Part shown: piece after piece, positions 11,017-64,000 of the stretch
Numbering within the stretch: the stretch's first letter is position 1
How the letters are laid out: every line of letters starts with the position of its first letter
DNA from: Parvibaculum lavamentivorans DS-1
GTDB lineage: Bacteria; Pseudomonadota; Alphaproteobacteria; Parvibaculales; Parvibaculaceae
Length of the DNA stretch: 64,000 nt
NCBI RefSeq assembly: GCF_000017565.1
Contig: NC_009719.1
Location: forward strand, 3,641,001-3,705,000
Reading direction: 5' to 3'
Notes under the pieces: generated by a model
Told to the model about the DNA's origin: nothing
Databases searched by the model: none
What the model saw: the letters and a program-made list of their open reading frames with translations, nothing else
Translations under genes and position numbers: made by a program

Positions 11017-13218
11017 ATGTCGGGCAAACAGCCGGTTGAGGTTCTGCTTCGCCCTGCGGTGGAGCTATATACCGTCGCAGCGTGTGCAGGTGCCGCGTTT
11101 CTGTCCCTGGTGGCCCCGTGGTCGCTCGCACTGAGCCCCGGCATGGGCGTCGGCAGCGCGCTGGCGTTCGGCGCCTACGGTGCCATCCGCTACCGCGATG
11201 CCCGCGTGATCCTGTGCTATCGGCGCAACATCCGCCGCCTGCCGCGGTACGTGATGACCAGCCGCGACGTGCCGGTCAGCCAGCAGCGGCTCTTCATCGG
11301 TCGGGGCTTTCTCTGGGAGCAGAAGCACACCCATCGGCTGATGCAGACGTACCGGCCGGAGTTTCGCCGCTACGTTGAGCCGACACCCGCTTATCGGCTG
11401 GCGCGGCGTCTGGAAGAACGGTTGGAGTTCGCGCCGTTTCCGCTTTCACGCCTGCCGAGGCTCACAGGCTGGGATGTGCCTTTCAACCCCGTTCGGCCGT
11501 TGCCGCCCGTGGGGGGCCTGCCGCGATTGCACGGCATCGAGCCGGAGGAGGTGGACGTCAGCCTGCCGCTGGGCGAGCGCGTCGGGCATTCGCTGGTCTT
11601 GGGCACCACCCGCGTGGGCAAGACCCGGCTGGCCGAGTTGTTCGTGACGCAGGACATCCGGCGCAAGAACGCATCCGGCGAGCATGAGGTCGTCATCGTC
11701 ATCGACCCCAAGGGCGATGCCGACCTCCTGAAGCGCATGTACGTCGAGGCCAAGCGCGTGGGCCGCGAGGGTGAGTTCTACATCTTCCATTTGGGCTGGC
11801 CGGAAATCAGCGCCCGCTACAACGCGGTGGGTCGCTTCGGTCGGATCTCGGAAGTGGCGACACGCATCGCGGGACAGCTCTCCGGCGAAGGCAACAGCGC
11901 GGCATTCCGCGAGTTCGCATGGCGCTTCGTCAACATCATCGCCCGCGCCTTGGTGGAACTGGGGCAGCGCCCGGACTACATGCTGATCCAGCGGCACGTC
12001 ATCAACATCGACGCGCTGTTCATCGAGTACGCCCAGCACTTCTTCGCCAAGACCGAGCCCAAGGCCTGGGAGGTGATCGTCCAGATCGAGGCCAAGCTCA
12101 ATGAGAAGAACATCCCGCGCAACATGATCGGGCGCGAGAAGCGCGTGGTGGCGCTGGAGCAGTACCTTTCCCAGGCGCGCAACTACGACCCGGTACTCGA
12201 CGGCCTGCGCTCTGCAGTCCGCTACGACAAGACGTACTTCGACAAGATCGTCGCATCGTTGCTGCCGCTGCTGGAGAAGCTCACCAGCGGCAAGATCGCC
12301 CAGCTCCTGGCCCCGAACTACTCCGACCTGGCCGATCCGCGCCCGATCTTCGATTGGATGCAAGTCATCAGAAAGCGCGCCGTGGTCTATGTGGGCCTGG
12401 ATGCGCTCTCGGACGCTGAAGTCGCCGCAGCGGTCGGCAATTCCATGTTCTCGGATCTAGTATCCGTCGCAGGGCACATCTACAAGCACGGGATCGATGA
12501 TGGCTTACCCGGTGCATCGGCAGGCACACGCGTGCCGATCAACGTGCACGCGGACGAATTCAATGAGTTGATGGGCGACGAGTTCATACCGCTCATCAAC
12601 AAGGGTGGCGGCGCCGGCCTGCAAGTTACTGCGTACACGCAGACGCTCTCGGACATTGAAGCCCGCATTGGCAACCGCGCGAAAGCCGGCCAGGTGATCG
12701 GCAACTTCAACAACCTGTTCATGCTCAGGGTCCGGGAGACGGCCACCGCCGAACTGCTGACCCGGCAATTGCCGAAGGTCGAGGTCTATACGACCACCAT
12801 CGTCTCCGGTGCGACCGACAGTTCGGACATCCGCGGCGCGACGGATTTCACCAGCAACACGCAGGACCGTATCAGCATGTCCAGCGTGCCAATGATCGAG
12901 CCCTCCCACATCGTCGGCCTGCCCAAGGGGCAGTGCTTCGCGCTGCTGCAGGGCGGCCAACTCTGGAAAATCAGGATGCCACTGCCGGCGCCGGACCCCG
13001 ATGAGGCCATGCCGCAGGATCTGCAACAACTGGCGGGCTACATGCGCCAGAGCTACACCGATGCCACCCAATGGTGGGAGTTCACCAGTTCCCCAGCCTT
13101 ACAGGATGCGGCCTTGCCCGACGATCTGCTCGATGACGCCGAGCTGGCCAAGCCGGTCGAGTCTGCCGCGGCGGCCACCGGCGCCGACGACAGCGCCGAA
13201 AACGAGGCCTCGCCATGA
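11017..13218 (+). CDS. traD: Type IV coupling protein TraD, SXT/TOL subfamily (TIGR03743)
   Basis: A 733-residue VirD4/TraD-class ATPase. Two N-terminal membrane segments (about 20-55) anchor it. Walker A is GTTRVGKT near residue 197, Walker B VIVIDPKGD near 226, and the sensor segment NVHADEFNEL near 510. A C-terminal acidic, alanine-rich tail follows about residue 690. It links the relaxase-DNA complex (MobH here) to the type IV channel and drives export. It overlaps the next gene by four bases. Length is normal for the subfamily. Confidence 0.92.
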   Translation: MSGKQPVEVLLRPAVELYTVAACAGAAFLSLVAPWSLALSPGMGVGSALAFGAYGAIRYRDARVILCYRRNIRRLPRYVMTSRDVPVSQQRLFIGRGFLWEQKHTHRLMQTYRPEFRRYVEPTPAYRLARRLEERLEFAPFPLSRLPRLTGWDVPFNPVRPLPPVGGLPRLHGIEPEEVDVSLPLGERVGHSLVLGTTRVGKTRLAELFVTQDIRRKNASGEHEVVIVIDPKGDADLLKRMYVEAKRVGREGEFYIFHLGWPEISARYNAVGRFGRISEVATRIAGQLSGEGNSAAFREFAWRFVNIIARALVELGQRPDYMLIQRHVINIDALFIEYAQHFFAKTEPKAWEVIVQIEAKLNEKNIPRNMIGREKRVVALEQYLSQARNYDPVLDGLRSAVRYDKTYFDKIVASLLPLLEKLTSGKIAQLLAPNYSDLADPRPIFDWMQVIRKRAVVYVGLDALSDAEVAAAVGNSMFSDLVSVAGHIYKHGIDDGLPGASAGTRVPINVHADEFNELMGDEFIPLINKGGGAGLQVTAYTQTLSDIEARIGNRAKAGQVIGNFNNLFMLRVRETATAELLTRQLPKVEVYTTTIVSGATDSSDIRGATDFTSNTQDRISMSSVPMIEPSHIVGLPKGQCFALLQGGQLWKIRMPLPAPDPDEAMPQDLQQLAGYMRQSYTDATQWWEFTSSPALQDAALPDDLLDDAELAKPVESAAAATGADDSAENEASP

Positions 13219-18482: not shown

Positions 18483-18912
18483 CTTGACCCGTGGCCTTGC
18501 GCTGGCCGTTGCCGTTGCGGTGCTCGGCGGCTGCGCCACCAGCAAGGAAAAGCTGCTGCCCCACGGTAGCAGCACGATGATGGACATTTGGCAGCAGGAA
18601 GCCGGCGACGGTGGCGGCGGTGCTGGCCAGGTAGCGCGCAGGCAATTGCTCGATGCGCGTCAAAGCCTGCGTCGGCCGCTGACCGAAGCGGACGTGCAGG
18701 CCGCACCTTCTGAGCAGATGCGCTACACGCGCACGGCGCGCAACGAAGTCTATCGCCAATTTCAGCGCCTGCCGAATCCCGACCTTGTGATGTATGTGTT
18801 CCCCCACCTGGCGGGCACCGACCCCATACCTGTGCCGGGCTACACGACCGTTTTCCCCCTGTACCAGCGTACCCAGTACGCCATGCCGGGCGAGCGCGTG
18901 GAGGATTATTGA
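18463..18912 (+). CDS. Conjugative-transfer lipoprotein, TIGR03751 family (TraV/VirB7 position)
   Basis: A 149-residue lipoprotein with lipobox VLGGC near residue 24. The conserved FPHLAGTDPIPVPGYTTVFP segment is near 115. It would anchor the core channel in the outer membrane. The start is the ATG at 18463, preceded by AGGAG; the longer upstream frame lies within the TraB-like gene. The stop overlaps the next start (ATGA). Confidence 0.83.
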   Translation: MLSNLTDLTRGLALAVAVAVLGGCATSKEKLLPHGSSTMMDIWQQEAGDGGGGAGQVARRQLLDARQSLRRPLTEADVQAAPSEQMRYTRTARNEVYRQFQRLPNPDLVMYVFPHLAGTDPIPVPGYTTVFPLYQRTQYAMPGERVEDY

Positions 18913-21782
18913 TGCGCTGGAAACTCTCTTGGCCGAAGCTGGCCGCATCCAGTGCTGGCGATGAAGAGCAACCGGACGGCTGGAAGCGCCATGTTGAGGC
19001 CTTGCGCCAGGCCGGTATTCCCGAACCCGGCTCGGCGGTCCGCGGGCGCAGGTCGGCAACGGTGGCCGACGAGCAGGCGCTGTACGACGTCGCGCCTTCG
19101 TTCGTGGAACTGCTGCCTTGGGTGGAGTTCCTGCCCGAGTCGAAGGCCATGCTGCTGGAGGACGGGCAATCGGTCGCGGCCTTCTACGAGTTGGTGCCGC
19201 TGGGCACCGAGGGCCGGGAACCCGGCTGGCTCGCACATGCCCGGGATGCCCTGGAGAATGCGCTGCAAGACAGCTTCGATGAATTGGACGAGCACCCCTG
19301 GGTACTCCAGCTCTACGCCCAGGACGAGGCCAGCTTCGACCAGTACATGCAGACCCTGCGCGACTACGTGCAGCCGCGCGCACGCGATACAGCTTTCACC
19401 GAGTTCTACCTGCGCTTTTTCGGTCATCACCTGCGCGCGGTGGCCAAGCCGGGTGGCCTGTTCGAGGACACCGTGGTCACGCGCCTGCGCTGGCGCGGCC
19501 AAAGCCGGCGTGTACGGATGGTGGTCTATCGGCGTTCCAGCGGACAGGCGAGCCGCCGTGGCCAGACGCCGGAGCAGATGCTCAATATCGTCTGCGATCG
19601 CCTGTGTGGTGGCTTGGCCAACGCCGGTATTCAGGCCCGGCGTATGGTCGCAACCGACGTTCACGACTGGCTGCTGCGGTGGTTCAACCCCAATCCCGCG
19701 TTGCTCGGGCCTGCGGTCGAGGACCGCGAGCGCTTCTATGCGTTGGCACGCTATCCCGATGAGACCGAAGACGGCGAGATCGAACTGGCGAGCGGACGGG
19801 ATTTCAGCCAACGGTTGTTCTTTGGGCAACCGCGCTCCGACGTAGCGCGCGGTACCTGGACCTTCGACGGCATGCCGCACCGCGTGCTGATCACCGACCG
19901 GCTACGGATGCCACCCGGCGCCGGGCATCTGACCGGAGAGACCCGCAAGGGCGATGCGATCAACACGCTGTTCGACCAGATGCCCGAAGACACCTTGATG
20001 TGCCTGACGATGGTCGCCACACCGCAGGATGTCCTCGAATCGGATTTGAATCACCTGGCGAAGAAGGCCGTGGGCGAAACCCTGGCATCCGAGCAGACGC
20101 TCAAGGATGTGCACGAGGCCCGTTCGCTCATCGGCAGCGCGCACAAGCTCTACCGGGGCACGCTGGCGTTCTACCTGCGCGGGCGTGACGAAGCCGAGCT
20201 GAACCGTCGCGGGCTGGATCTGGCGAACGTGATGCTCAACGCCGGCTTGCAGCCGGTGCGCGAGGACGACGAGGTGGCGCCGCTCAACAGCTACCTGCGC
20301 TGGCTGCCGTGCTGCTACAACCCCAGCCAAGACCGGCGCAAGTGGTACACGCAACTCATGTTCGCCCAGCACGCGGCGAATCTGTCGCCGGTATGGGGCC
20401 GTGCTCAGGGCACCGGGCACCCCGGCATCACGATGTTCAACCGCGGCGGCGGCCCGATCACTTTCGACCCGCTCAACCGCCTGGACCGACAGATGAATGC
20501 CCATCTGTTCCTGTTCGGCCCAACCGGCTCGGGCAAAAGCGCCACGCTCAACAACCTGCTGAACCAGGTCACGGCCATCTACCGGCCGCGGCTCTTCATC
20601 GTGGAGGCTGGCAACAGCTTCGGTTTGTTCAGCGAATTTGCCAGGCGTTTGGGTCTGACGGTCAACCGCGTGAAGCTGGCCCCTGGCTCGGGCGTGACCC
20701 TGGCGCCGTTTGCCGATGCGCGCCGGCTGATCGAGACACCCAGCGACGTGCAAACGCTCGATGCCGATGCGCTGGACGAAGAGCTGCCACCCGATGCCTC
20801 GGCCATGGAGCCGGACGAGCAACGCGACGTACTGGGCGAGTTGGAGATCACCGCGCGGTTGATGATCACAGGTGGGGAAGACAAGGAAGAAGCCCGCATG
20901 ACGCGGGCCGACCGCTCGCTGATCCGCCAGTGCATTCTGGATGCTGCCGAGCGCTGCGTGGCCAAGAGGCGCACGGTGCTCACGCGTGATGTGCGTGATG
21001 CGTTGCGCGCGCGGGGCAACGACAGCACGCTGCCAGAGATGCGGCGCGTGCGGCTGCTGGAGATGGCGGACGCAATGGACATGTTCTGCCAGGGCACGGA
21101 TGGCGAGATGTTCGATCGGGACGGTTCCCCTTGGCCCGAGGCCGACATCACTCTGGTGGATCTCGCGACCTATGCTCGCGAGGGCTACAACGCGCAGCTC
21201 TCCATCGCGTACATCAGCCTGATCAGCACGGTGAACAACATCGCCGAGCGCGACCAGTATCTGGGCCGACCGATCGTCAATGTGACCGACGAAGGCCACA
21301 TCATCACCAAGAACCCGTTGCTCGCGCCCTACGTCGTGAAGATCACGAAGATGTGGCGCAAGTTGGGCGCGTGGTTCTGGCTCGCGACGCAGAACATTGA
21401 CGATCTGCCCCGTGCCGCAGAACCCATGCTCAACATGATCGAGTGGTGGATCTGCCTGTCGATGCCGCCGGACGAGGTGGAGAAGATCGCGCGCTTTCGC
21501 GAACTCTCGCCCGCGCAGAAGGCGTTGATGCTTTCCGCACGCAAGGAAGCAGGGAAATTCACCGAAGGCGTGATCCTGTCGAAGTCGATGGAGGTGCTGT
21601 TTCGGGCCGTACCGCCAAGCCTCTACCTCGCACTCGCGCAGACCGAACCCGAGGAGAAGGCCGAACGCTACCAGCTCATGCAGCAGTACGGCATCACCGA
21701 ACTGGAGGCGGCCTTCAAGGTGGCCGAGAACATCGACCAGGCACGCGGCATCGAGTCGCCGGCCCTGGACCTGCCGCAATAG
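18912..21782 (+). CDS. traC: VirB4/TraC-type conjugative transfer ATPase, PFL_4706 family (TIGR03744)
   Basis: A 956-residue ATPase, normal length for the family. Walker A is GPTGSGKSATLNN near residue 536, Walker B IVNVTDEGH near 790, and a downstream arginine-containing ATQNIDDLP segment lies near 830. The N-terminal half has no known catalytic motif, as in other VirB4 proteins. It powers pilus assembly and substrate export from the inner membrane. ATG at 18912 is preferred over TTG at 18909 because it makes an ATGA overlap with the lipoprotein gene. Confidence 0.92.
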   Translation: MRWKLSWPKLAASSAGDEEQPDGWKRHVEALRQAGIPEPGSAVRGRRSATVADEQALYDVAPSFVELLPWVEFLPESKAMLLEDGQSVAAFYELVPLGTEGREPGWLAHARDALENALQDSFDELDEHPWVLQLYAQDEASFDQYMQTLRDYVQPRARDTAFTEFYLRFFGHHLRAVAKPGGLFEDTVVTRLRWRGQSRRVRMVVYRRSSGQASRRGQTPEQMLNIVCDRLCGGLANAGIQARRMVATDVHDWLLRWFNPNPALLGPAVEDRERFYALARYPDETEDGEIELASGRDFSQRLFFGQPRSDVARGTWTFDGMPHRVLITDRLRMPPGAGHLTGETRKGDAINTLFDQMPEDTLMCLTMVATPQDVLESDLNHLAKKAVGETLASEQTLKDVHEARSLIGSAHKLYRGTLAFYLRGRDEAELNRRGLDLANVMLNAGLQPVREDDEVAPLNSYLRWLPCCYNPSQDRRKWYTQLMFAQHAANLSPVWGRAQGTGHPGITMFNRGGGPITFDPLNRLDRQMNAHLFLFGPTGSGKSATLNNLLNQVTAIYRPRLFIVEAGNSFGLFSEFARRLGLTVNRVKLAPGSGVTLAPFADARRLIETPSDVQTLDADALDEELPPDASAMEPDEQRDVLGELEITARLMITGGEDKEEARMTRADRSLIRQCILDAAERCVAKRRTVLTRDVRDALRARGNDSTLPEMRRVRLLEMADAMDMFCQGTDGEMFDRDGSPWPEADITLVDLATYAREGYNAQLSIAYISLISTVNNIAERDQYLGRPIVNVTDEGHIITKNPLLAPYVVKITKMWRKLGAWFWLATQNIDDLPRAAEPMLNMIEWWICLSMPPDEVEKIARFRELSPAQKALMLSARKEAGKFTEGVILSKSMEVLFRAVPPSLYLALAQTEPEEKAERYQLMQQYGITELEAAFKVAENIDQARGIESPALDLPQ

Positions 21783-29557: not shown

Positions 29558-31423
29558 ATGCTCTCCTTGTTCCAGCGAAAAAGGGTCTCTGTCGCCCCCG
29601 CTCCGTCGCCAGCACCTGCCATCGATCTCCCGAAAGGGCTGCTGCGGCCAGAAGCCGCCGCAGCGCTGCTGGCAACACCGCGCCGGCAGAAACTGCTGGA
29701 ACACATCTGGCAGCGCACGTCGCTGTCGCGCAGGCAGTTCGCCACCCTATACCGCGCACCGCTGGAGCGCTACGCCGAGCTGGTCCAGCAGTTCCCCGCC
29801 TCCGAAAACCACCACCATGCCTACCCGGGCGGCATGCTGGACCACGGCCTGGAGATCGTCGCCTATAGCCTCAAGCTGCGACAGTCCCATCTGCTGCCCA
29901 TCGGCGCCAGCCCTGAGAACCAGGCCGCGCAAGCCGAAGCCTGGACGGCCGCCGTCGCCTATGCCGCTCTGCTGCACGACATCGGCAAGATCGCGGTCGA
30001 TCTGCACGTCGAACTGGCCGACGGCAACACCTGGCATCCCTGGCACGGCCCGTTGCACCAGCCGTACCGCTTCCGCTACCGCGACGATCGCGAGTATCGC
30101 CTGCACAGTGCCGCGACAGGCTTGCTCTACCGCCAGCTGCTTGACCGCCAAGTCCTGGACTGGCTCAGTGGCTATCCGGCGCTATGGGCGCCGCTGCTCT
30201 ACGTCCTGGCTGGCCAGTACGAGCACGCCGGGATACTGGGCGAGCTTGTCGTGCAAGCCGACCGTGCCTCGGTAGCGCAGGAGCTGGGCGGCGATCCGGC
30301 GCGCGCCATGGCCGCACCCAAGCATGCGCTGCAACGCAAGCTACTCGACGGGCTGCGCTATCTGCTCAAGGAAGAGTTGAAACTGAACCAGCCCGAGGCC
30401 TCCGATGGCTGGCTCACCGAGGACGCGCTGTGGCTGGTGAGCAAGACGGTCTCCGACAAGCTGCGTGCGCACCTGCTATCCCAGGGCATCGATGGCATCC
30501 CGGCGAACAACACGGCGGTGTTCAATGTGCTGCAGGACCACGGTATGTTGCAGCCCACACCGGACGACAAGGCGGTCTGGCGGGCGACCGTGACCAGCCC
30601 CAGCGGCTGGTCTCACTCGTTCACGCTGCTGCGCATCGCTCCTGCGCTGATCTGGGAATCTGGCCAGCGGCCGACACCGTTCGCTGGCACCGTGGTAATC
30701 GACGTAGCGCCTGCAGCCAAAGATACCGATGCTTTCGTACCCCCGGCCGCGATCGCGACAAAGCCAGCCGCCGAGGGTCAGGAGCCGAAGCGTTGGGAGG
30801 AAAGCGGCGACATCGCTGCCCAGGCTCCCCCGCCCGCTTCCCCGGCCATGCCCGATGCCATGGAAGACATGTTAGCTATGGTAGGCATGGGCGATCCGCC
30901 CGACGTTTCTCACAATGAGCAGGCCGATACAGCCAACACATCTGCCGCACGCTCCGAGGCTCCTATGCCGACTATGGCTGTGACCTCGCCAACGTCGCCT
31001 GTATCCACGGCCATAGCTGCACCGCCACCCTTAAGCGCACGGCCATCCGGTGAGCATTTCATGGAGTGGCTGCGCCAGGGTATCGCTTTACGCAAGCTCA
31101 TCATCAATGATGCGAAGGCGCTCGTGCATACCGTGAGCGACACCGCGTATCTGGTCAGCCCTGGCGTGTTCCAGCGGTACGCACAAGAACACCCACAAGT
31201 GGGCATGCTGGCAAAGCAGGAGAGCCAACAAGATTGGCAATGGGTGCAAAAGCGCTTCGAGCGGGTGCAGTTGCATCGCAAGCATCCCAACGGCTTGAAC
31301 ATCTGGGCCAGCGAAGTGACAGGTCCGCGAAAATCACGGCGCCTGCATGGCTACCTTTTGCAAGACCCCCATTTGTTGTTTACGGAGGTGCCTCCAAACA
31401 ATCCGTATCTGTCGTTGATCTGA
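29558..31423 (+). CDS. traI: MobH-family relaxase (TraI of PFGI-1/ICEclc-type elements)
   Basis: A 621-residue relaxase. It has the histidine motif HHHAYPGGMLDHG near residue 84 and an HD-type motif LLHDIGK near 138, the signature of MobH relaxases. A linker rich in Pro/Ala lies near 380-490, and a C-terminal domain (EHFMEWLRQGIALRKLIIND near 500) is typical of the family. It nicks the origin of transfer and is exported with the strand. AGGA lies eight bases before the start. It is the last backbone gene before the scar region, so the element's integrase end is not contiguous here. Confidence 0.9.
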   Translation: MLSLFQRKRVSVAPAPSPAPAIDLPKGLLRPEAAAALLATPRRQKLLEHIWQRTSLSRRQFATLYRAPLERYAELVQQFPASENHHHAYPGGMLDHGLEIVAYSLKLRQSHLLPIGASPENQAAQAEAWTAAVAYAALLHDIGKIAVDLHVELADGNTWHPWHGPLHQPYRFRYRDDREYRLHSAATGLLYRQLLDRQVLDWLSGYPALWAPLLYVLAGQYEHAGILGELVVQADRASVAQELGGDPARAMAAPKHALQRKLLDGLRYLLKEELKLNQPEASDGWLTEDALWLVSKTVSDKLRAHLLSQGIDGIPANNTAVFNVLQDHGMLQPTPDDKAVWRATVTSPSGWSHSFTLLRIAPALIWESGQRPTPFAGTVVIDVAPAAKDTDAFVPPAAIATKPAAEGQEPKRWEESGDIAAQAPPPASPAMPDAMEDMLAMVGMGDPPDVSHNEQADTANTSAARSEAPMPTMAVTSPTSPVSTAIAAPPPLSARPSGEHFMEWLRQGIALRKLIINDAKALVHTVSDTAYLVSPGVFQRYAQEHPQVGMLAKQESQQDWQWVQKRFERVQLHRKHPNGLNIWASEVTGPRKSRRLHGYLLQDPHLLFTEVPPNNPYLSLI

Positions 31424-32264: not shown

Positions 32265-33077
32265 TCATTGGCTGGCCTCCTGAACTGCCCTTGTTGACTT
32301 GGCTGCCGCCCGCGCGGCCTTGCCGGTGCGACGCGACTCGCCCTCGAGATTGAAGCGCCGGCAGCTTTGCATCAATCGGTCGAGGATGGCGTCGGCGATC
32401 GTGGCGTCGCCCAGCCAGGCGTGCCAATGCTCGATGGGCAACTGGTGCGTGATGATCGTCGCGCGGTGGCCTACCCGGTCATCAATGACCTCCAGCAGGT
32501 CACCCCGGGTGACACTGTCCATCGGACCCGTCCCCCAATCGTCCAGGATCAACACGTCGACCTTGGCAAGCTGCTCGAGCCAACGTCGGAAGGTGCCTGC
32601 GCCGTGGAGGATGCGAAGCTCCTCGGCCAGACGTGGCACCCTCAGGTACAGCGCCGAGTGTCCCTGGCGACAGGCGTACTGGGCCAGCGCGCAGGCCAGC
32701 CACGTCTTGCCCAGCCCGGTGGCGCCGGCGAAGGTCAGCGTCTCGCCCCGCTCGATCCAGGTCGACAGTGCGACGCCCATCAAGGTGGACCTGTCGATGC
32801 CGCGCACCGTCTCGAAGCTGGCGTCCTCCAAGGTGGCCGTGGGGTACTTCAGCTGGGCACGCTGCAGCAGCCGAGCCCGCTTGCGGTCGCCTCGGGCGTA
32901 GACCTCGCGCTCGACCAGCAGGGCCAGTCGCTCGTCGAACGACAGGTTCAGGCAGTCGGCCTGTTCTTGCTGCTGCTGCAAGGCGTCGGCGAAGCCCTGC
33001 AGTTTGAGCGCGCGCAGTTGGGTCAGGGTGGCGTTGTTGAGCATGGCGTGTGGGTGCAATGGATTGGATGGGTTCAT
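32265..33077 (-). CDS. istB: IS21-family helper ATPase IstB
   Basis: About 270 residues. A DnaA/DnaC-like AAA+ ATPase with Walker A GATGLGKTW near residue 117 and Walker B VLILDDWG near 178. The N-terminal helical part (LTQLRALKLQGFADAL) is typical of IstB. The start could be 33077 or 33044. It would load the IstA transposase on target DNA, but IstA is incomplete here, so the element is unlikely to move on its own. Confidence 0.88.
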   Translation of the reverse strand: MNPSNPLHPHAMLNNATLTQLRALKLQGFADALQQQQEQADCLNLSFDERLALLVEREVYARGDRKRARLLQRAQLKYPTATLEDASFETVRGIDRSTLMGVALSTWIERGETLTFAGATGLGKTWLACALAQYACRQGHSALYLRVPRLAEELRILHGAGTFRRWLEQLAKVDVLILDDWGTGPMDSVTRGDLLEVIDDRVGHRATIITHQLPIEHWHAWLGDATIADAILDRLMQSCRRFNLEGESRRTGKAARAAAKSTRAVQEASQ

Positions 33078-33109
33078 GGTGGGCTCTGGGCTGGTGAGGT
33101 CGGTCGTCC

Positions 33110-33858
33110 TCACTGGTAGTAGCCCGGTCCGCGCAGGTTGGCGTGCGTCGGACTGGTCCATTCGGCTTCGGCATCCAGCGGCACCTGGTCACGGTTGTTG
33201 GCCAGCAGGTCGCGCACATGGTGGTAGCGGAAGGCACCCAGAGCGAGGGCCCGTTCGCAGGCCGCCTCCAGCCGTGCCTCGCCATATCGGCGCGACAGGT
33301 TCAGCAGTCCCAGGCAGGAGCGGTAGCCGTGTTCGGGATGCTTGTAGGTCTGCAGCAGCCGGGTGATGAGTTCGCCGCATGCCATGCCGATGCGTTGGCC
33401 CCAATCGATCAGCCGCTGAGGCGTCCACTCCAGGTGGGCGCGGTGGGCAGCAGGCATGTGGGCCTCCACCGTGGTGTAGCCGCCGCGGCGCTCGTTGCGA
33501 GCGTGGGCGGCCACGCGCTGGCCGCGCAGCAGCAACTCCACGCCGTGGCGGGTGAGGCGCGCCTCCAGGGCCTGGCCGACGAGCGCATGCGGCACGCTGT
33601 AGCGGTGGCCCTCCATCTCGACGTGGTAGTCGATGTGGACCTTCACCGTCTTGAAGCGGGCAAGCTCATAGGGTTGGCGCGGCAGCGACATCAGTGTCGG
33701 CGCATCCAGTTCGGCGAACACGCTGGCGCGGCTGCCGGGCAGCTTCTGAAACGGCCGGTCGTTCACGCTCGATAGCAGTTCGGTGATGGCTGCATCGACC
33801 TGGGCGACGGTGTCGAAGCGATGGTGGCGCAGCCGGGCCAGCACCCAACGGGTGAAAT
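33110..33858 (-). pseudogene. istA: IstA transposase, N-terminal half missing
   Basis: Only about 250 C-terminal residues of a roughly 500-residue IS21 transposase remain, from RWVLARLRHHRF onward, including HIDYHVEMEGHRYSVPHALVG. The HTH and most of the DDE core are absent. The frame upstream of 33858 is not IstA-like, marking the deletion junction. Confidence 0.85.
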
Positions 33859-34019
33859 CCGCTCTAGTGCGCAGTGGCAAGGCCGACGCCACGATGGTCC
33901 TTTACCCTGGGGGCACGCATTCCTTGGCGGGCAGTGGACGTCCGAGTCATCGACAGGACTACCACGAACGGATTGTGGATTTCCTTGAGCAAACGCAATA
34001 TAGCGACAAACCGACGTAG
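33852..34019 (+). pseudogene. 3' remnant of an S9-family peptidase gene
   Basis: The last about 55 codons on the plus strand read as the C-terminus of a prolyl-oligopeptidase-type enzyme: MVLYPGGTHSLAGSG with the catalytic-histidine region, then DYHERIVDFLEQ. Everything 5' has been replaced by the istA junction near 33858. Confidence 0.6.
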
Positions 34020-34214: not shown

Positions 34215-34730
34215 TCATTCGTGTCTCGTCCCTCGTAATGCTTTTGACAACGCTGCCGTGGAGTCGCGAACTGCCTGTTGGCTCACCACTGCTGTCTGCA
34301 CCATCTGAAACCCGTGTGGAGCGCCAGGGTAGATGTGCATTTCGACGGGCACCCCAGCCCGCATTAACCGTCGGGCATATTCGAGGCTCTCCTCAAGGAA
34401 TAGGTCTAGTGCCCCGCACATGATGAATGTGGGTGGCAATCCCGCAAGATCTTCTGCCCGTGCCGCAGCGGCGTAGCAGGACACCTCGCGCGAGCCGGGC
34501 GCGCAATTGAGCAATGATGTCCAGCCATACAGATCTGAGGCCTGCGTCCAGATGAACTCCCCTGCATAGGGTGATACGTCGGGATCAATCGCCGTGCGGT
34601 CATCGATCATTGGGAAGACCAGATGCTGGTAGGCGATCGCATACTTACCCCTATCGCGCGCGAGCAATGCCAGCGCCGCCGCGAGGCCGCCGCCTGCGCT
34701 GTCACCGCTGACAAGAATACGGGTGCGATC
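34215..34730 (-). pseudogene. N-terminally truncated hormone-sensitive-lipase-type esterase
   Basis: The remaining 171 codons include the nucleophile elbow GDSAGG, the aspartate region CGALDLFLEES and the histidine region YPGAPHGFQ, so the catalytic triad is present. The N-terminal part with the HGGG oxyanion motif is missing. The 5' junction is inside the IS3-type transposase frame near 34722-34730. Confidence 0.75.
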
Positions 34731-36208
34731 TTGATCCGCTTCTCGTTGTACCAGCGGATGTACGAGTCGACCGCCTCGACGAACTGCTCAATGGTGGCGG
34801 TCTTCCAGTCCCGAGGATAGAACAGCTCATTCTTCAGCCGACCGAAGAAGCCTTCGCAGGCAGCGTTATCAGGTGAGCATGCTTTGCGAGACATCGAGCG
34901 GATGAAGTTCGCGTTGCTCATTCTTGAGAGCCAACCCGGCCAGCGGTAGTGGCCGCCCCGATCGGAGTGGACCACGGGACGATCAGCCGTGTCGGCCAAC
35001 GTCTCGATGGCTGCGTCCAGCATCGTGTTGACCAACTCCGCGTCCGGACTGGTCCCAATGGTCCAGCTGACGACCATTCCGTCGAAGCAGTCGATGATGG
35101 GCGAGAGGTACACCTTGCCAGCCGGGATCTGGAACTCCGTGATGTCCGTGAGCCATTTCGCGTTGGGCACCGCGGCCTGGAAGTCGCGATCGATGAGGTT
35201 CTCAGGCGCTGGGCTGATTTCGCCAAGGTAAGACGCATAGCGGCGCTTTCTGGGCCTTGGAACAACCAGGCTTTCCTGCTTCATCAACCGCTGTACAACC
35301 TTCTCTGAGATCGTGACGTCCTGCCTGGTCAGAGATGCCTGCAGCCTGCGGTAGCCATAGCAGCGGTGGTTCGACTCAAAGATGTCGGTGATGGATTGCC
35401 GAACCTTCAGGTACTTGTCGCCCACCGCTGCGCGGGCCCGGTGATAGAAATACGAACTGCGCGCAAGATCCAACTGTGCAAGGAGCTCTGGCAGGCCATA
35501 GTGCTCCCTGAGGGCGTCAATCAGCAGTGTCTTCTCCCGGTTGGACAGGAGCTGCAGGTCGACGCCCAGGCCTTTTTTTAACAGTTCGTTGGCCTTGTTC
35601 AAAAGATCCTGCTCGAGGCGCAGTTGCCTGACTTCGCGGCGCAGGGACTCAACCTGGCGCTCGAGCTCATCGCGCTCCTGCGAAGGCGAAGATGGATTGG
35701 TACGTTTCATGGATGCGGGTGCTTCACGTCCCAGAAGTTGGTTCTTCCAGTTGTACAGCGTTGGCCGGCACACGCCGAACTTGTCGGCTACAGCCTGGGC
35801 ACTTTCCTCGCGAGTGCAGAGTTCCATGACTCCTGCTTGCATCAGCTCCCCGGAATACCTTCGTCGCACCGTACTGCCGACGACACGCCTTCTGGCTTCA
35901 GGAAGGGCCTCGCGAATCCAAGCGGTTAGCGTCCCTCTGCAGGGGTAGCCCAGTGCCCTCATGGTGGCCGCAATGCAGCGGTCGTGAGCGAGGTAATGCT
36001 CGATAGCTGCCGCCTTCTGTTCCTTCGAGAACTTGGGTCTCCGGCCCGCATAGCCCGCTGGCAAGTCGAGCTTCTGCTGGTATTCGTTGTACCAGCCCTT
36101 CAGAGAATTCTTTGTTGGATAACCCAGCTGGCGGATCGTGGGCCTGACGCGCCTGCCCAGCTTGATATAGAGCTCAACCGCTCGAATTCGATCTTCGTAG
36201 GAATACAT
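34722..36208 (-). pseudogene. IS3-family transposase, 3' end replaced by esterase sequence
   Basis: About 495 codons of a single-frame IS3-type transposase with two N-terminal helix-turn-helix regions (GYPTKNSLKGWYNEYQ; KFGVCRPTLYNWK), a leucine-zipper-like stretch near 175-210, and the DDE catalytic core (LTDITEF, VVHSDRGG, DNAACEGFFGRLKNE). It reads normally to RIKIA and then enters the esterase sequence out of its frame. Roughly the last 20-25 codons and the right terminal repeat are lost. Confidence 0.8.
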
Positions 36209-36257
36209 GAACTACCTCCTGGTAGTCCAAGTTTTCGTCCGCACCCCCAGATGGTCA
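34722..36257 (-). mobile_element. IS3-family element, one end deleted
   Basis: The transposase-start side ends near 36257 with TGACCATCTGGGGG reading inward, a plausible terminal repeat beginning TG. The other end is missing at the esterase junction. The element therefore cannot transpose as a unit. Confidence 0.6.
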
Positions 36258-36300
36258 GTTTTGGGTCGGCACTAACACCGGGACGGACCGGGAGGGCATG

Positions 36301-36340
36301 AAAAAAGGGGCTGGACGGGAACCCGGCCAACCCCTTGATT
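36301..36340 (-). terminator. Strong terminator downstream of the tRNA fragment (minus strand)
   Basis: On the minus strand, GGGGTTGGCCGGG pairs with CCCGTCCAGCCCC around TT, with two mismatches, followed by TTTTTT (36301-36306). It lies about 40 bases beyond the CCA end of the tRNA-Thr fragment, the usual place for a tRNA terminator, so it is probably native chromosomal flank. Confidence 0.75.
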
Positions 36341-36375
36341 TTTCGATACTTTCTTACAGCTTGTTAGCTTAAATC

Positions 36376-36418
36376 TGGTGCCGGAAATAGGAATCGAACC
36401 TACGACCTACGCATTACA
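36376..36418 (-). other. 3' fragment of a tRNA-Thr(TGT)-like gene: putative attachment site
   Basis: Read on the minus strand, 43 bases run from the anticodon TGT through the T-arm (GTAGG TTCGATT CCTAT) to the acceptor strand TTCCGGC and ACCA. The sequence upstream does not fold into a D-arm or supply the GCCGGAA acceptor partner, so the gene is not whole. Tyrosine integrases commonly target such tRNA 3' ends and leave one as a direct repeat. No integrase is seen nearby. Confidence 0.75.
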
Positions 36419-36495
36419 GAGGAGTGCACTACGCCCATCTGAAAGATAGAAGCTTGCCCAAATCAGCTCGGCTGCGTACAGCAGATGGCAGTTGT

Positions 36496-38439
36496 CTATG
36501 GCTGCATGAAATGCGCTTCCCGCAGAGCAATGTCCTCTCTCAGAATGCGCTGGATTTCCAGCACTGCCGCCGCGCTCTGTTGCACGCTGTGTCCTGAAAT
36601 GATGATTTTCTCGGATTGCGCCCCGGGAAGGTGGGCGCTGCGGTAAGGCACGAGGCCGTCATCGGAATCAACGAGGGCCACTTCGGGGTCAGCCTGGGCC
36701 ACGATCGAGTGATAGTTCACCTGGGCAGAGATGGGAAAGTCCGCTGCCGCGCGCACGAAAGGATCGTTCTCGTCGAGGTTGTCGACGCTATTGGGGATAT
36801 GCCCCAGGCTTTCGTGGCTGCTGGCCGCCGCATTGGGTGCTAGTGTGTGGGCGAGTTCTTCGAGCACCGTAACGGGGAAGCGAATGAATCCCGCCATCCA
36901 GCGCCCCAGGCGTCCACCTGCGACCGACGTGCCCCGGTGCGGTGCTGCGATGAAGATGGCGCGGCCGACATGCGGGAAGGGCTCGAAACGCAACATCGGA
37001 TCTATGCGTTTGATCTGCTGCGGCGTCAGCCGACTGCGATCCGCAGCCAGCTGCACCAGCGACTGGTCGGTTGACGACACCATCAACCGCGCGATGACCC
37101 CGCCCATGCTATGCCCCACCAGTACAAGGTCGGACGATGCCGGCGCCTGGCCGGAAGGATCGAAATGCGCCAGCGTATCCCCGAGCGCCCTGCGAATCAT
37201 CGCGTGGTTCAATGCGATCGGCATATTGGTCGGGTAGTAGACCTGCCAGATTTGGTAATGCTGGCGCAGCGCCTCATCGCCCAGGATTTCGTTGGCGAGT
37301 TCCACCCAGGCTTCCGGGCTACTGGCCAGTCCGTGCAGCATGACGATGATCCGTCGGTTCGGATCGTAGGGCTGCATCAGGTAGACGTGCGGACGGTCGA
37401 TTCCACCCTCGCGCCCAAGCAGGCTGCGCAGCGACTGCCGGTTGAAGTTGGCGCGGGCCAGCCACAGTCCGTAGCCGGCGGTGAAATTGGCCGCCAGCGG
37501 TACGCGCTGCCCGCGCAGCATGATGGCCGACTCCACATAGGGGTCATGCACCGTCAAACGGACAGTGCGGGTATGCAGCACGCTGTCCAGGTCGTCTCCG
37601 TCCGGGTGCAGCAGAATCGTCATGGACGGCGCGGGCATCTCGCTCCAGGGTAGAGGCTGCTGATTGCGTTTGGCCGCTGGATGGCCATCCCGGGTGGGGG
37701 CGGAAGTCAGGGGTTCGTCCGGCATGACCGCCACCAGCTCGGCGCCGAAACCGTCGCGCCGGTAGAGGCTGCGCAGTCCGCGGAAAGACAGGGACGAGGC
37801 TGGCAGGAGTTCGGCTGGCACCGCCGTACTGCCCGGCAAGCGCGCGCTGCGCATATCCAGCTGCAGCTCCCAGCCTGCAATGTTCCAGCGGGTCTGCGCT
37901 GGCAACTGCGTAGACATTTGTTGCCGAACCTCGAACATCCCGGTGGCGGCACGTTCGACCGCATAGTTATACCAATCCCGCACTTGCGTCTGGCGATCCT
38001 CGAAGGCTCGCTCCCCAGGCGTATGGTCACCGAAGAACAGGTAGGCATAGGCATAACGAATGGTCTCAAGCCAGGCGGCTTGCTGCTCTGATCCGGGCTT
38101 CATGGCCTGAGCCTGCGCCAGCCACAGTTCGGACAGTGCAGCCAGGCGTCGATCCGCGGCAACGCCGGTCACGGCGGCCAGGGCCTCGACGCAATCCGCT
38201 GAGATCGGTTTTGCGCAAGCCTGCGCATCCAATGCCGCCACCCTGATGGTCTGGGTCGTCGCATCGCTGAGTTTGCCGCGTGTCAGGATATCGCCGCGCT
38301 TGAGTTCGATGGCCTCGCCCGCATCCAGTGTATGAACCTCAACCACTGGGCCGAACTCACGCAGGATCGAGCAGCCCCCCAGCAACAGCGGGGCAATGAC
38401 GAGCCACACTGCCATGCGGCAAGACTGCTGGAACCTCAT
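36496..38439 (-). CDS. Lipoprotein alpha/beta-hydrolase
   Basis: A 647-residue lipoprotein with a signal peptide and lipobox LLGGC near residue 23. A long N-terminal region of unknown fold (about 25-360) precedes a C-terminal alpha/beta-hydrolase domain: MLHGLASSPEAW near 368, the nucleophile elbow GHSMGG near 445 and a likely catalytic histidine in ISGHSVQQS near 620. It would act on lipids or esters at the outer membrane or periplasmic face; the substrate is unknown. The start overlaps the stop of the DUF4105 gene (ATGA). Confidence 0.82.
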   Translation of the reverse strand: MRFQQSCRMAVWLVIAPLLLGGCSILREFGPVVEVHTLDAGEAIELKRGDILTRGKLSDATTQTIRVAALDAQACAKPISADCVEALAAVTGVAADRRLAALSELWLAQAQAMKPGSEQQAAWLETIRYAYAYLFFGDHTPGERAFEDRQTQVRDWYNYAVERAATGMFEVRQQMSTQLPAQTRWNIAGWELQLDMRSARLPGSTAVPAELLPASSLSFRGLRSLYRRDGFGAELVAVMPDEPLTSAPTRDGHPAAKRNQQPLPWSEMPAPSMTILLHPDGDDLDSVLHTRTVRLTVHDPYVESAIMLRGQRVPLAANFTAGYGLWLARANFNRQSLRSLLGREGGIDRPHVYLMQPYDPNRRIIVMLHGLASSPEAWVELANEILGDEALRQHYQIWQVYYPTNMPIALNHAMIRRALGDTLAHFDPSGQAPASSDLVLVGHSMGGVIARLMVSSTDQSLVQLAADRSRLTPQQIKRIDPMLRFEPFPHVGRAIFIAAPHRGTSVAGGRLGRWMAGFIRFPVTVLEELAHTLAPNAAASSHESLGHIPNSVDNLDENDPFVRAAADFPISAQVNYHSIVAQADPEVALVDSDDGLVPYRSAHLPGAQSEKIIISGHSVQQSAAAVLEIQRILREDIALREAHFMQP

Positions 38440-39482
38440 GGAGATACCTCGTCGGCCGGCACGCCGGGCACACCTTGTCGAATCGACATCGAGAAGTCGT
38501 CTCCTGATGCGTCAGAGGCCAGTGCGCGTTCGTTGATGTGCCCCAGTGCCTGCAGTTCTGCGTAGCGATGGCCGGGCGTCAATCCGTGCAGGTCATGGAT
38601 GTATTCCGCAAAGTGTCCGGACAGCAGCAGGCGATAGTCCGCCGGCAACGCTGGCGCAATGAGCCGAGCCAGCTCGAATACGATGGTCGTGCAGTTACTG
38701 GTCAAGGTGTTGTAAAAGCGCGGTGTGCGCCGCAGTTCATTGGCCGCGTGCAGATACTCCAGAAACAACGCGCGGACATTCGCCTGACTCATCTGCAACC
38801 GATAGAGATAAACGTCCTCGCCTCGCGCATTGCTGCGCGTACGCACAATGTCGCGCTCATCGGCGGCTACCAGGATCTGCTCGAACTGACGGAAGAATCC
38901 GCCGATCGCCGAGAAGGACTCGTGGCGCTCCTTGCGTATTTCCAGTGAGAACACTACCCGCTCGCCACCGTCGAAGCCGAACGACACCAGTGTGTGCGCA
39001 ATGTGCGGCCCCATCCAGTAGGAAAGTACCAGGTCGGCACTGCGCAAGCGGTCCAGATCGTATGTGCGGTTCTCCCACTGCGGGGTGTAGTCGGTTTCGC
39101 TGCGCCACTCGAAGTTGCGTACATTTTTCAGGTGAACGTGGCTGCCGTCGATTCCGGCCTCCAGCAACTGGGCGACATCGTCAGCCCATGGGCGTTGGTG
39201 TGATGGCTGCAGCGTTCCCCACCACATGAGCAGGGCTGCCGTTGCGGCCCCGAACACGAATCCGGCGATCCTGCGTGTCCGTCTTTCAAGCAAGCCTGCC
39301 AGCGACACGGCGACGGACAGCCCCGAGGCAGACCACGCCAGAGTGGCGATCCAGCGAGCCGCTGGATGTTGCGGCATCTGGTGCCACAGGGCCAGCGCGC
39401 CCCACGCAGTCAGCAATAGCACCGCAATGCCGATCACCAGGCGCATGGGGAGGTGCCTGACTTTTTGCGTCACCTTGCTCAT
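38436..39482 (-). CDS. DUF4105 (Lnb N-terminal periplasmic domain) membrane protein
   Basis: A 348-residue protein with three hydrophobic segments at the N-terminus (about 13-32, 43-65, 70-90) and a periplasmic DUF4105 domain. Typical segments are VRNFEWRSETDYTPQWENRTYDL near 120, GPHIAHTLVSF near 158 and YNTLTSNCTTIVFE near 260. The Cys and His there resemble an NlpC/P60-like catalytic pair, which would make it a cysteine hydrolase or acyltransferase (inference). It starts on the stop of the tetR reading frame and runs into the hydrolase gene, so the three are co-translated. Confidence 0.8.
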   Translation of the reverse strand: MSKVTQKVRHLPMRLVIGIAVLLLTAWGALALWHQMPQHPAARWIATLAWSASGLSVAVSLAGLLERRTRRIAGFVFGAATAALLMWWGTLQPSHQRPWADDVAQLLEAGIDGSHVHLKNVRNFEWRSETDYTPQWENRTYDLDRLRSADLVLSYWMGPHIAHTLVSFGFDGGERVVFSLEIRKERHESFSAIGGFFRQFEQILVAADERDIVRTRSNARGEDVYLYRLQMSQANVRALFLEYLHAANELRRTPRFYNTLTSNCTTIVFELARLIAPALPADYRLLLSGHFAEYIHDLHGLTPGHRYAELQALGHINERALASDASGDDFSMSIRQGVPGVPADEVSP

Positions 39483-62755: not shown

Positions 62756-64000
62756 ATGCTCTCATTGACCAGCCTGGGTGGTGCCGGCACCGTCACCGGC
62801 TCCAAGCACCTTATCACCCATGGCAATACCCGCATCCTGATCGACTGCGGACTGTTCCAGGGATTGAAAAACCTGCGCGAACTTAATTGGCAGCGCCTGG
62901 CCGTTGAACCCAAGGACATCGATGCGGTCGTACTGACGCATGCGCACCTGGATCATTGTGGGTATCTGCCCCGATTGGTGCTGGACGGGTTCCGCGGGAA
63001 GATTTTCTCGACCTCAGCCACGCGAGATGTCGCCGAACTCATCCTGCTCGACAGTGCCTGGTTGCAAGAGAAGGACGCCGAGTTCGCCAATCGAAAAGGA
63101 TTTTCCAAACACAAGCCAGCCCTTCCGCTGTATCGGGTTCGGGATGCAGAACGTGCGCTCCTGCAGTTCAAACCGGTGCCGCTGCATCAAGAGACGGAAT
63201 TGCCGGGCAATGCCCGTCTACTGCTGCGCAGCGCTGGTCACATTCTTGGGGCGGCGACGGTTCAGATCGACATTGGCGGCAAGCGTTTGGTGTTCTCCGG
63301 CGACCTGGGGCGCTATGACGATGTGGTCATGCCTGATCCTGAACCCGTCACGGCAGCGGACTACATCATCATCGAGTCCACCTATGGCAATCGTCGTCAT
63401 GACCGTTCCGATGCCGTCGAAGCGCTGGGCGACATCATCGAGCGCACGACTCGCCGCGGAGGCACCGTAGTGATTCCCGCTTTTGCCGTTGGACGCGCGC
63501 AGTCGTTGATCTATGACCTATGGCTGTTGCGACAGCGCGGTCGGCTCCGCACCGTGCCCGTCTATCTGGACAGTCCCATGGCCACCAGCGCAACTGCGCT
63601 GCTGCACCGCCATGCCGACGACCACAAGCTCGCACAACACGATTTCGAGGCGGCATTCTCAGAAGTCACATACATGCGCGACGTTGAAGAGTCCAAGGCG
63701 CTATCGGCGAATCGCTACCCCAAGGTGATTATTTCCGCCAGCGGCATGGCCACCGGTGGCCGCGTGCTGCATCACATAGAAGCGTTTGGCGGCAGTCATC
63801 AGAACACGCTGCTGTTCTCTGGATTCCAGGCAGCAGGTACGCGCGGACGCAAGCTGCTTGAGGGCGCTCGCGAAGTCAAAATTCATGGGCGCTGGATGCC
63901 GATCAAGGCGGAGGTCGCCGAGCTTGCGATGTTGTCGGCTCATGCCGACAGCGATGAACTGATGCGTTGGCTGGGCGGCTTTACCCGGGCGCCGGAAGGG
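62756..64000 (+). CDS. MBL-fold beta-CASP ribonuclease-like protein (3' end outside window)
   Basis: The frame opens at ATG 62756 after AGAGGAG and runs to the last base, 415 codons seen. The metallo-beta-lactamase motif THAHLDHCG is near residue 60, the histidine of SAGHILGAA near 160 and GDLGRYDD near 183. A beta-CASP domain (PAFAVGRAQSL near 245, SASGMATGG near 327) follows. This is the RNA-processing exonuclease group (YSH1/MTH1203-like). It would cut RNA; why it belongs to the carbon module is unknown. Confidence 0.85.
   Translation, partial: MLSLTSLGGAGTVTGSKHLITHGNTRILIDCGLFQGLKNLRELNWQRLAVEPKDIDAVVLTHAHLDHCGYLPRLVLDGFRGKIFSTSATRDVAELILLDSAWLQEKDAEFANRKGFSKHKPALPLYRVRDAERALLQFKPVPLHQETELPGNARLLLRSAGHILGAATVQIDIGGKRLVFSGDLGRYDDVVMPDPEPVTAADYIIIESTYGNRRHDRSDAVEALGDIIERTTRRGGTVVIPAFAVGRAQSLIYDLWLLRQRGRLRTVPVYLDSPMATSATALLHRHADDHKLAQHDFEAAFSEVTYMRDVEESKALSANRYPKVIISASGMATGGRVLHHIEAFGGSHQNTLLFSGFQAAGTRGRKLLEGAREVKIHGRWMPIKAEVAELAMLSAHADSDELMRWLGGFTRAPEG

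Follow-up and report, generated by a model that had tools for sequence, protein, structure and literature searches.

That the integration of mobile elements leaves fragments of tRNA genes behind is well known. According to the available text of the paper on Islander islands (PMC4383910), crossover in tRNA genes falls mainly into two classes of site, the anticodon loop being one, and the text available for PMC9897764 already describes a tRNA gene fragment separated from its gene by rearrangement. Both the Islander islands and these fragments resemble the one reported here in consisting of a 3' tRNA piece that is cut in the anticodon loop and ends in CCA. The thrW / tRNA-Thr attP sites of P22-like and CP4-6-type phages involve the same tRNA, and for the ICEclc family the available text of PMC10732049 gives an 18-bp core repeat, GTCTCGTTTCCCGCTCCA. 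Compared with these systems, a foreign tRNA fragment that travels inside another element is a small variation; among the titles and abstract openings listed in searches of the open-licence literature we found no report of an orphan tRNA-Thr fragment in an ICEclc-type ICE.

The window, i.e. the whole stretch of 64,000 nucleotides that was analysed, comprises bases 3641001-3705000 of a single-contig 3.91-Mb genome (see Table 1 for features). On its minus strand, a stretch of 43 bases (36418-36376) ends in CCA, with a hairpin and a T-run downstream on that strand, in agreement with the terminator of the initial annotation. Folding of the 141-nt scar stretch gave z = -3.64, with none of 200 shuffles folding as well, and a terminator scan returned one site compared with a mean of 0.3 in shuffles.

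Table 1. Coordinates of the tRNA-Thr(CGT) fragment, its surroundings and selected genes of the carrier ICE.
Feature	Position	Strand	Evidence or remark
tRNA-Thr(CGT) 42-base 3' block, second anticodon base to CCA; probable attachment relic	36376..36417	-	42/42 vs X. vasicola L082 5265-5306; single copy in ICE
T behind the TGT-looking anticodon; flank	36418	-	C here in X. vasicola, L100 and L101
Intrinsic terminator 3' of fragment (hairpin 36334-36307, T-run 36306-36301)	36301..36334	-	
AT-rich spacer, CCA to terminator	36335..36375	-	39 nt adjoining CCA = 31% GC; CCA-side part invariant in 6 genomes
Cargo genes pointing to the scar: alpha/beta hydrolase 36496-38439, Lnb_N protein 38436-39482	36496..39482	-	
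IS3-family element, truncated at 34727; scar-side end ~36248-36277	34727..36277	-	Pfam; plasmid matches 34727-36248 and 34727-36277
IS21 remnants: istB 32265-33161, partial transposase 33110-33892	32265..33892	-	
TraI relaxase, MobH / PFGI-1 class	29558..31423	+	Pfam, NCBIfam
TraC conjugative ATPase, PFL_4706 type	18909..21782	+	NCBIfam
TraD coupling protein	11017..13218	+	NCBIfam
Tyrosine integrase, 644 aa	window-equivalent 68966-70900	-	

A BLAST search of plasmids showed that 42 of 42 bases are identical to the 3' part of an intact tRNA-Thr(CGT) in one record, X. vasicola pXVH29, a match beyond chance (E = 5e-12 among 72,556 plasmid records). The base at 36418 is a mismatch to the X. vasicola gene and is read as flank. 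This single adjoining base accounts for the anticodon having been read as TGT in the initial annotation, and since the identical intact gene is CGT the identity tRNA-Thr(TGT) is ruled out; the fragment itself, running to CCA, is present as described, with 42 instead of 43 bases. Partial matches at 19 loci of other genomes fall in an intact tRNA-Thr(CGT) (10 loci), tRNA-Thr(TGT) (3), another tRNA (2) or where there is no tRNA gene (4). We also note that pXVH29, a record filed under plasmids, includes genes of chromosomal appearance (ispH, cyoABCD) together with its tRNA-Thr(CGT), and that four more tRNA-Thr-like 3' fragments, with no intact tRNA in the locus, were seen at L065, L066, L071 and L077; at L066 the block is preceded by CTCT, as in the window.

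The scar lies within an ICE of the ICEclc/PFGI-1 type of about 97 kb, which spans approximately -26042 to 71144 in window-equivalent coordinates. It is located between traI and the cargo, some 62 kb in from the left ICE end. The left half of the window is ICE core, and 8 of the 10 proteins scored (seven of these eight encoded in the window, one to its left) score at or above the curated cut-off for an ICE-type family of NCBIfam, including TIGR03760, TIGR03754, TIGR03744, TIGR03752, TIGR03755 and TIGR03756. The TraG_N protein was assigned through Pfam and has no NCBIfam match, and the ICE integrase has NCBIfam matches below the cut-off only. A MobH/TraI_2 relaxase thus occurs together with ICE-type T4SS genes, and the tRNA-Gly-type cores at 71126-71144 past the integrase and, as its partner, near -26042 (window-equivalent; L034, L038) correspond to the 18-bp core GTCTCGTTTCCCGCTCCA but for 1 and 2 mismatches; both ICE junctions of Eoetvoesiella carry this core exactly. 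Relaxase, T4SS genes, tyrosine integrase and core are those of the ICEclc family as given in the available text of PMC10732049, but the present carrier differs from that description in having a tRNA-Thr relic in its cargo and in residing, in this host, in a protein gene and not in tRNA-Gly. Specifically, the host flanks of the ICE, when joined, give a 725-residue open frame that runs into a P-type ATPase (Pfam, right side), which places the ICE in a protein gene here; a heavy-metal-binding-like domain in the first part of the frame and the metal type of the ATPase were judged by eye. The insertion site in this frame resembles a tRNA-Gly 3' end.

On the terminator side, which had been thought to be chromosomal flank, we find ICE DNA with a truncated IS3 copy, IS21 genes and traI. 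The cargo on the other side (window 36496-62720 together with L034 69-2708) encodes the alpha/beta hydrolase, the Lnb_N protein, TetR, outer-membrane and RbbA-type efflux genes, SDR, DUF3141, phosphate acetyltransferase, acetate kinase, GltS, PhaC, LpxR, PRPP synthetase-like, phosphoketolase, pyrimidine nucleoside phosphorylase-like and LysR proteins. At E <= 1e-80 the alpha/beta hydrolase next to the scar was found in its own genome only of 385; matches occur in 16 plasmid records, all with <60% identity, and none was found in viral contigs. An integrase had been expected past position 64000 and is indeed present there, but it belongs to the ICE end that carries the tRNA-Gly-type core. Relatives of this integrase (E <= 1e-60) were detected in 21 of 385 class genomes including its own, the only other close one (90%) being in G301, where the locus likewise lacks a tRNA gene. 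Among 25 integrase loci examined, the window's own included, one (L141) has a tRNA-Thr(CGT) nearby; by eye the sequence downstream of this tRNA is unlike the scar flank.

No counterpart of the block was detected in the host. The genome yielded 43 tRNA matches, and the three tRNA-Thr genes found (TGT, GGT and CGT) all clearly differ from the fragment; a genome search with a 35-base part of the block, allowing <=3 mismatches, returned the scar alone, contrary to the host copy that had been anticipated. The tRNA list is without tRNA-Ile(GAT) and tRNA-Ala(TGC), so stretches of the genome, perhaps rRNA operons, may escape this search. ARAGORN predicted no tRNA gene in the 64-kb window, none in the 80 kb to its right, where the intact tRNA had been postulated, and none in the 60 kb to its left. 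Scored along the ICE, the block reaches 42/42 at the scar and 24 at the next-best place (24 is also the best for the reversed block), and no second copy of the 42-base core was found within the ICE. In terms of the Islander-type signs of an island edge, the scar has the end piece of a tRNA gene (42/42, the 3' end of tRNA-Thr(CGT)); a cognate intact tRNA on the same replicon was not found in the tRNA list and genome search, nor, with the cognate tRNA not found, an integrase between the two. The scar differs from the fragments of PMC4383910 and PMC9897764 in that the full cognate tRNA was not found in the genome and that the piece lies inside another mobile element, which is present in several genera.

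A search that covered 192 genomes, sampled from the genus up to the class, gave a match at E <= 0.001 in 35 of them (own genome included), and no other genome among the 192 aligned over the block plus more than a few flank bases; in G004, 26 bases of the terminator side alone match. The block with <=2 mismatches was seen in the own genome only of 385, i.e. in none of the 384 other class genomes sampled, and for this reason its host range is poorly known. The exact 43-mer is present in five stretches of the genome collection besides the own genome, from Betaproteobacteria MAG AG20 (G192), Tolumonas osonensis, Pigmentiphaga sp., Eoetvoesiella caeni (G195) and a Caldilineaceae MAG (10-kb contig). 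All five carriers have both flanks as in the window, and no intact tRNA occurs in any of the five loci retrieved. In the whole genomes of Tolumonas and Pigmentiphaga an intact tRNA-Thr(CGT) with 2 and 3 mismatches, respectively, is present on other contigs, and in the other three nothing except the scar lies within 3 mismatches.

In AG20 and Eoetvoesiella, the two carriers in which the contig is long and ICE ends or neighbours can be recognised, the scar is internal to the ICE. The AG20 ICE, scar included, aligns with gaps from -24168 to 71141 and ends at an intact tRNA-Gly(GCC), in line with an insertion in this gene; its left end was not located. Eoetvoesiella (NZ_QNRQ01000010.1) has three ICEclc-type ICEs head to tail with junctions near 34528 and 123208, the first being cut by the contig start and the third traced in part; the match to the window at the scar is confined to the third, and in the middle one nothing between integrase and traI matches the cargo of the window. 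The IS3 copy of Pigmentiphaga continues past 34727 and is followed by 2.7 kb of extra sequence, where by eye no integrase was seen.

With a probability of roughly 0.8, we consider the block to be an orphan attachment-site relic from a Xanthomonas-like former host that is carried as ICE cargo and marks no island edge in this genome. The attachment scar proposed in the initial annotation is in this sense upheld, a 3' tRNA block cut at the anticodon loop and present once in the ICE, whereas its role as an island edge is not, given the differing host tRNA-Thr genes and the ICE DNA on both sides in relatives. Like att sites of the thrW type, the block starts in the anticodon loop, and in the 20 phage attP matches listed the same start is seen (87.8% identity, query 9-57). 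Two IMG/VR contigs have an identical stretch of at least 41 bases near an integrase with an Arm-DNA-bind_3 domain, and one element (L101) has an intact tRNA-Thr(CGT) at its other end, the 3' half of which is not identical to the fragment. The phage thrW-like attP sites and the IMG/VR elements with the same block argue that the block is a usual integration target. Unlike in the thrW phages, no phage or integrase genes were recognised beside the scar in the window.

We suggest that an element with a tyrosine integrase inserted in the tRNA-Thr(CGT) of a Xanthomonas-like host and displaced its 3' end, that the displaced piece and neighbouring DNA would later have been caught into the ICE, probably aided by the adjoining insertion sequences, and that the fragment may since have travelled with the ICE. 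The former host would be Xanthomonas-like as judged from the 42 bases alone. No genome was found in which the left flank stands next to an intact tRNA-Thr(CGT), and the capture step is thus without a direct witness; the terminator flank could be old chromosome or the integrase end of an element. In the present host the block is probably inert for integration because the ICE integrase is at the tRNA-Gly-type end and neither a cognate target nor a second core copy was found.

The strongest alternative, which we nevertheless consider unlikely, is that a sister ICE specific for tRNA-Thr(CGT) contributed the terminator side as its integrase end, that the other side stems from the end of a second element in the same tRNA, and that the two were fused and later acquired a tRNA-Gly-type integrase, with a change of target. 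The order CCA, AT-rich stretch with CTGTAAG, hairpin and TTTTTTCAT is common to the scar and the ICE integrase ends, and the orientation of the scar and its place at the traI/cargo boundary fit a fusion; three ICEs in tandem are seen in Eoetvoesiella. The scar flank compared with the integrase ends of the own ICE and of the second and third Eoetvoesiella ICEs gave local scores of 24, 29 and 24; of 2000 dinucleotide shuffles, 16, 1 and 10, respectively, scored as high. However, the aligned part amounts to 17 bases, mostly terminator arm, control alignments with 40 host tRNA flanks gave top scores of 23, 20 and 23, which is within one point in two of the three comparisons, and the own end and that of the third ICE are the same sequence, leaving only two independent ends. 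The likeness of the scar flank to an ICE integrase end is therefore weak. Against the far ends of the ICEs the right flank scored 12, 12 and 18, with 1999, 1985 and 502 of 2000 shuffles as good, and as an ICE far end the scar flank has no similarity. Inspection by eye of the ORFs in the longer Pigmentiphaga version revealed no second integrase.

Searches for either flank elsewhere gave little. Exact 33-base and 19-base parts of the left flank and an exact 31-base part of the right flank were absent from viral contigs, and the left flank had no match at E <= 1 among plasmids and one, at E = 1, among phages. A gapped pattern for sister integrase ends had one match in viral contigs, inside a phage gene and attributed to chance, and in 40 genomes of the order it retrieved the ICE's own end only; the gap of this pattern is too short to match the scar itself. 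Overall, we hold it to be quite unlikely that the scar is the fossil junction of two tandem tRNA-Thr(CGT)-specific elements, one of them a sister of the present ICE, with a later gain of the tRNA-Gly-type integrase. If true, it would document an ICE that changed its chromosomal target and kept its old attachment core inside.

That the block is instead under selection as a functional part of the ICE, e.g. as a terminator or an alternative attachment site, appears improbable. The 42-base block is invariant across 6 genomes in which the matched DNA around it has 92 to nearly 100% identity, and the terminator may, judged by the layout of the genes, end transcripts of the minus-strand cargo genes 39482-36496, since these are transcribed towards the scar. 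But the 5' flank is as conserved as the block (a one-base difference in one genome over the aligned stretch of both), and recent common origin therefore explains the conservation; moreover, the terminator hairpin has a one-base difference in three genomes and is interrupted by a 1.3-kb insertion in Eoetvoesiella. Finally, an island in the host's own tRNA-Thr, having the cargo at higher coordinates inserted next to a chromosomal terminator side and the intact tRNA further to the right, would fit the orientation of fragment and terminator but is hardly credible, since a matching host tRNA was looked for without success, ARAGORN detected no tRNA in the 80 kb on the right, and in relatives the same ICE DNA adjoins both sides, so that the two observations named in the initial annotation as speaking against it, no matching host tRNA and a fragment internal to the ICE in relatives, are those made here.

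For the orphan relic that we favour, the consequence is that taking any tRNA 3' fragment as an island edge misplaces boundaries when the fragment rides another element, and that a foreign tRNA end absent from the present host gives at least a rough indication of which host the element once had. As a separate observation, the sole Rfam match at gathering scores in the whole window is a radC RNA (RF01754; 22513-22661, 133.8 bits), located within the ICE core.
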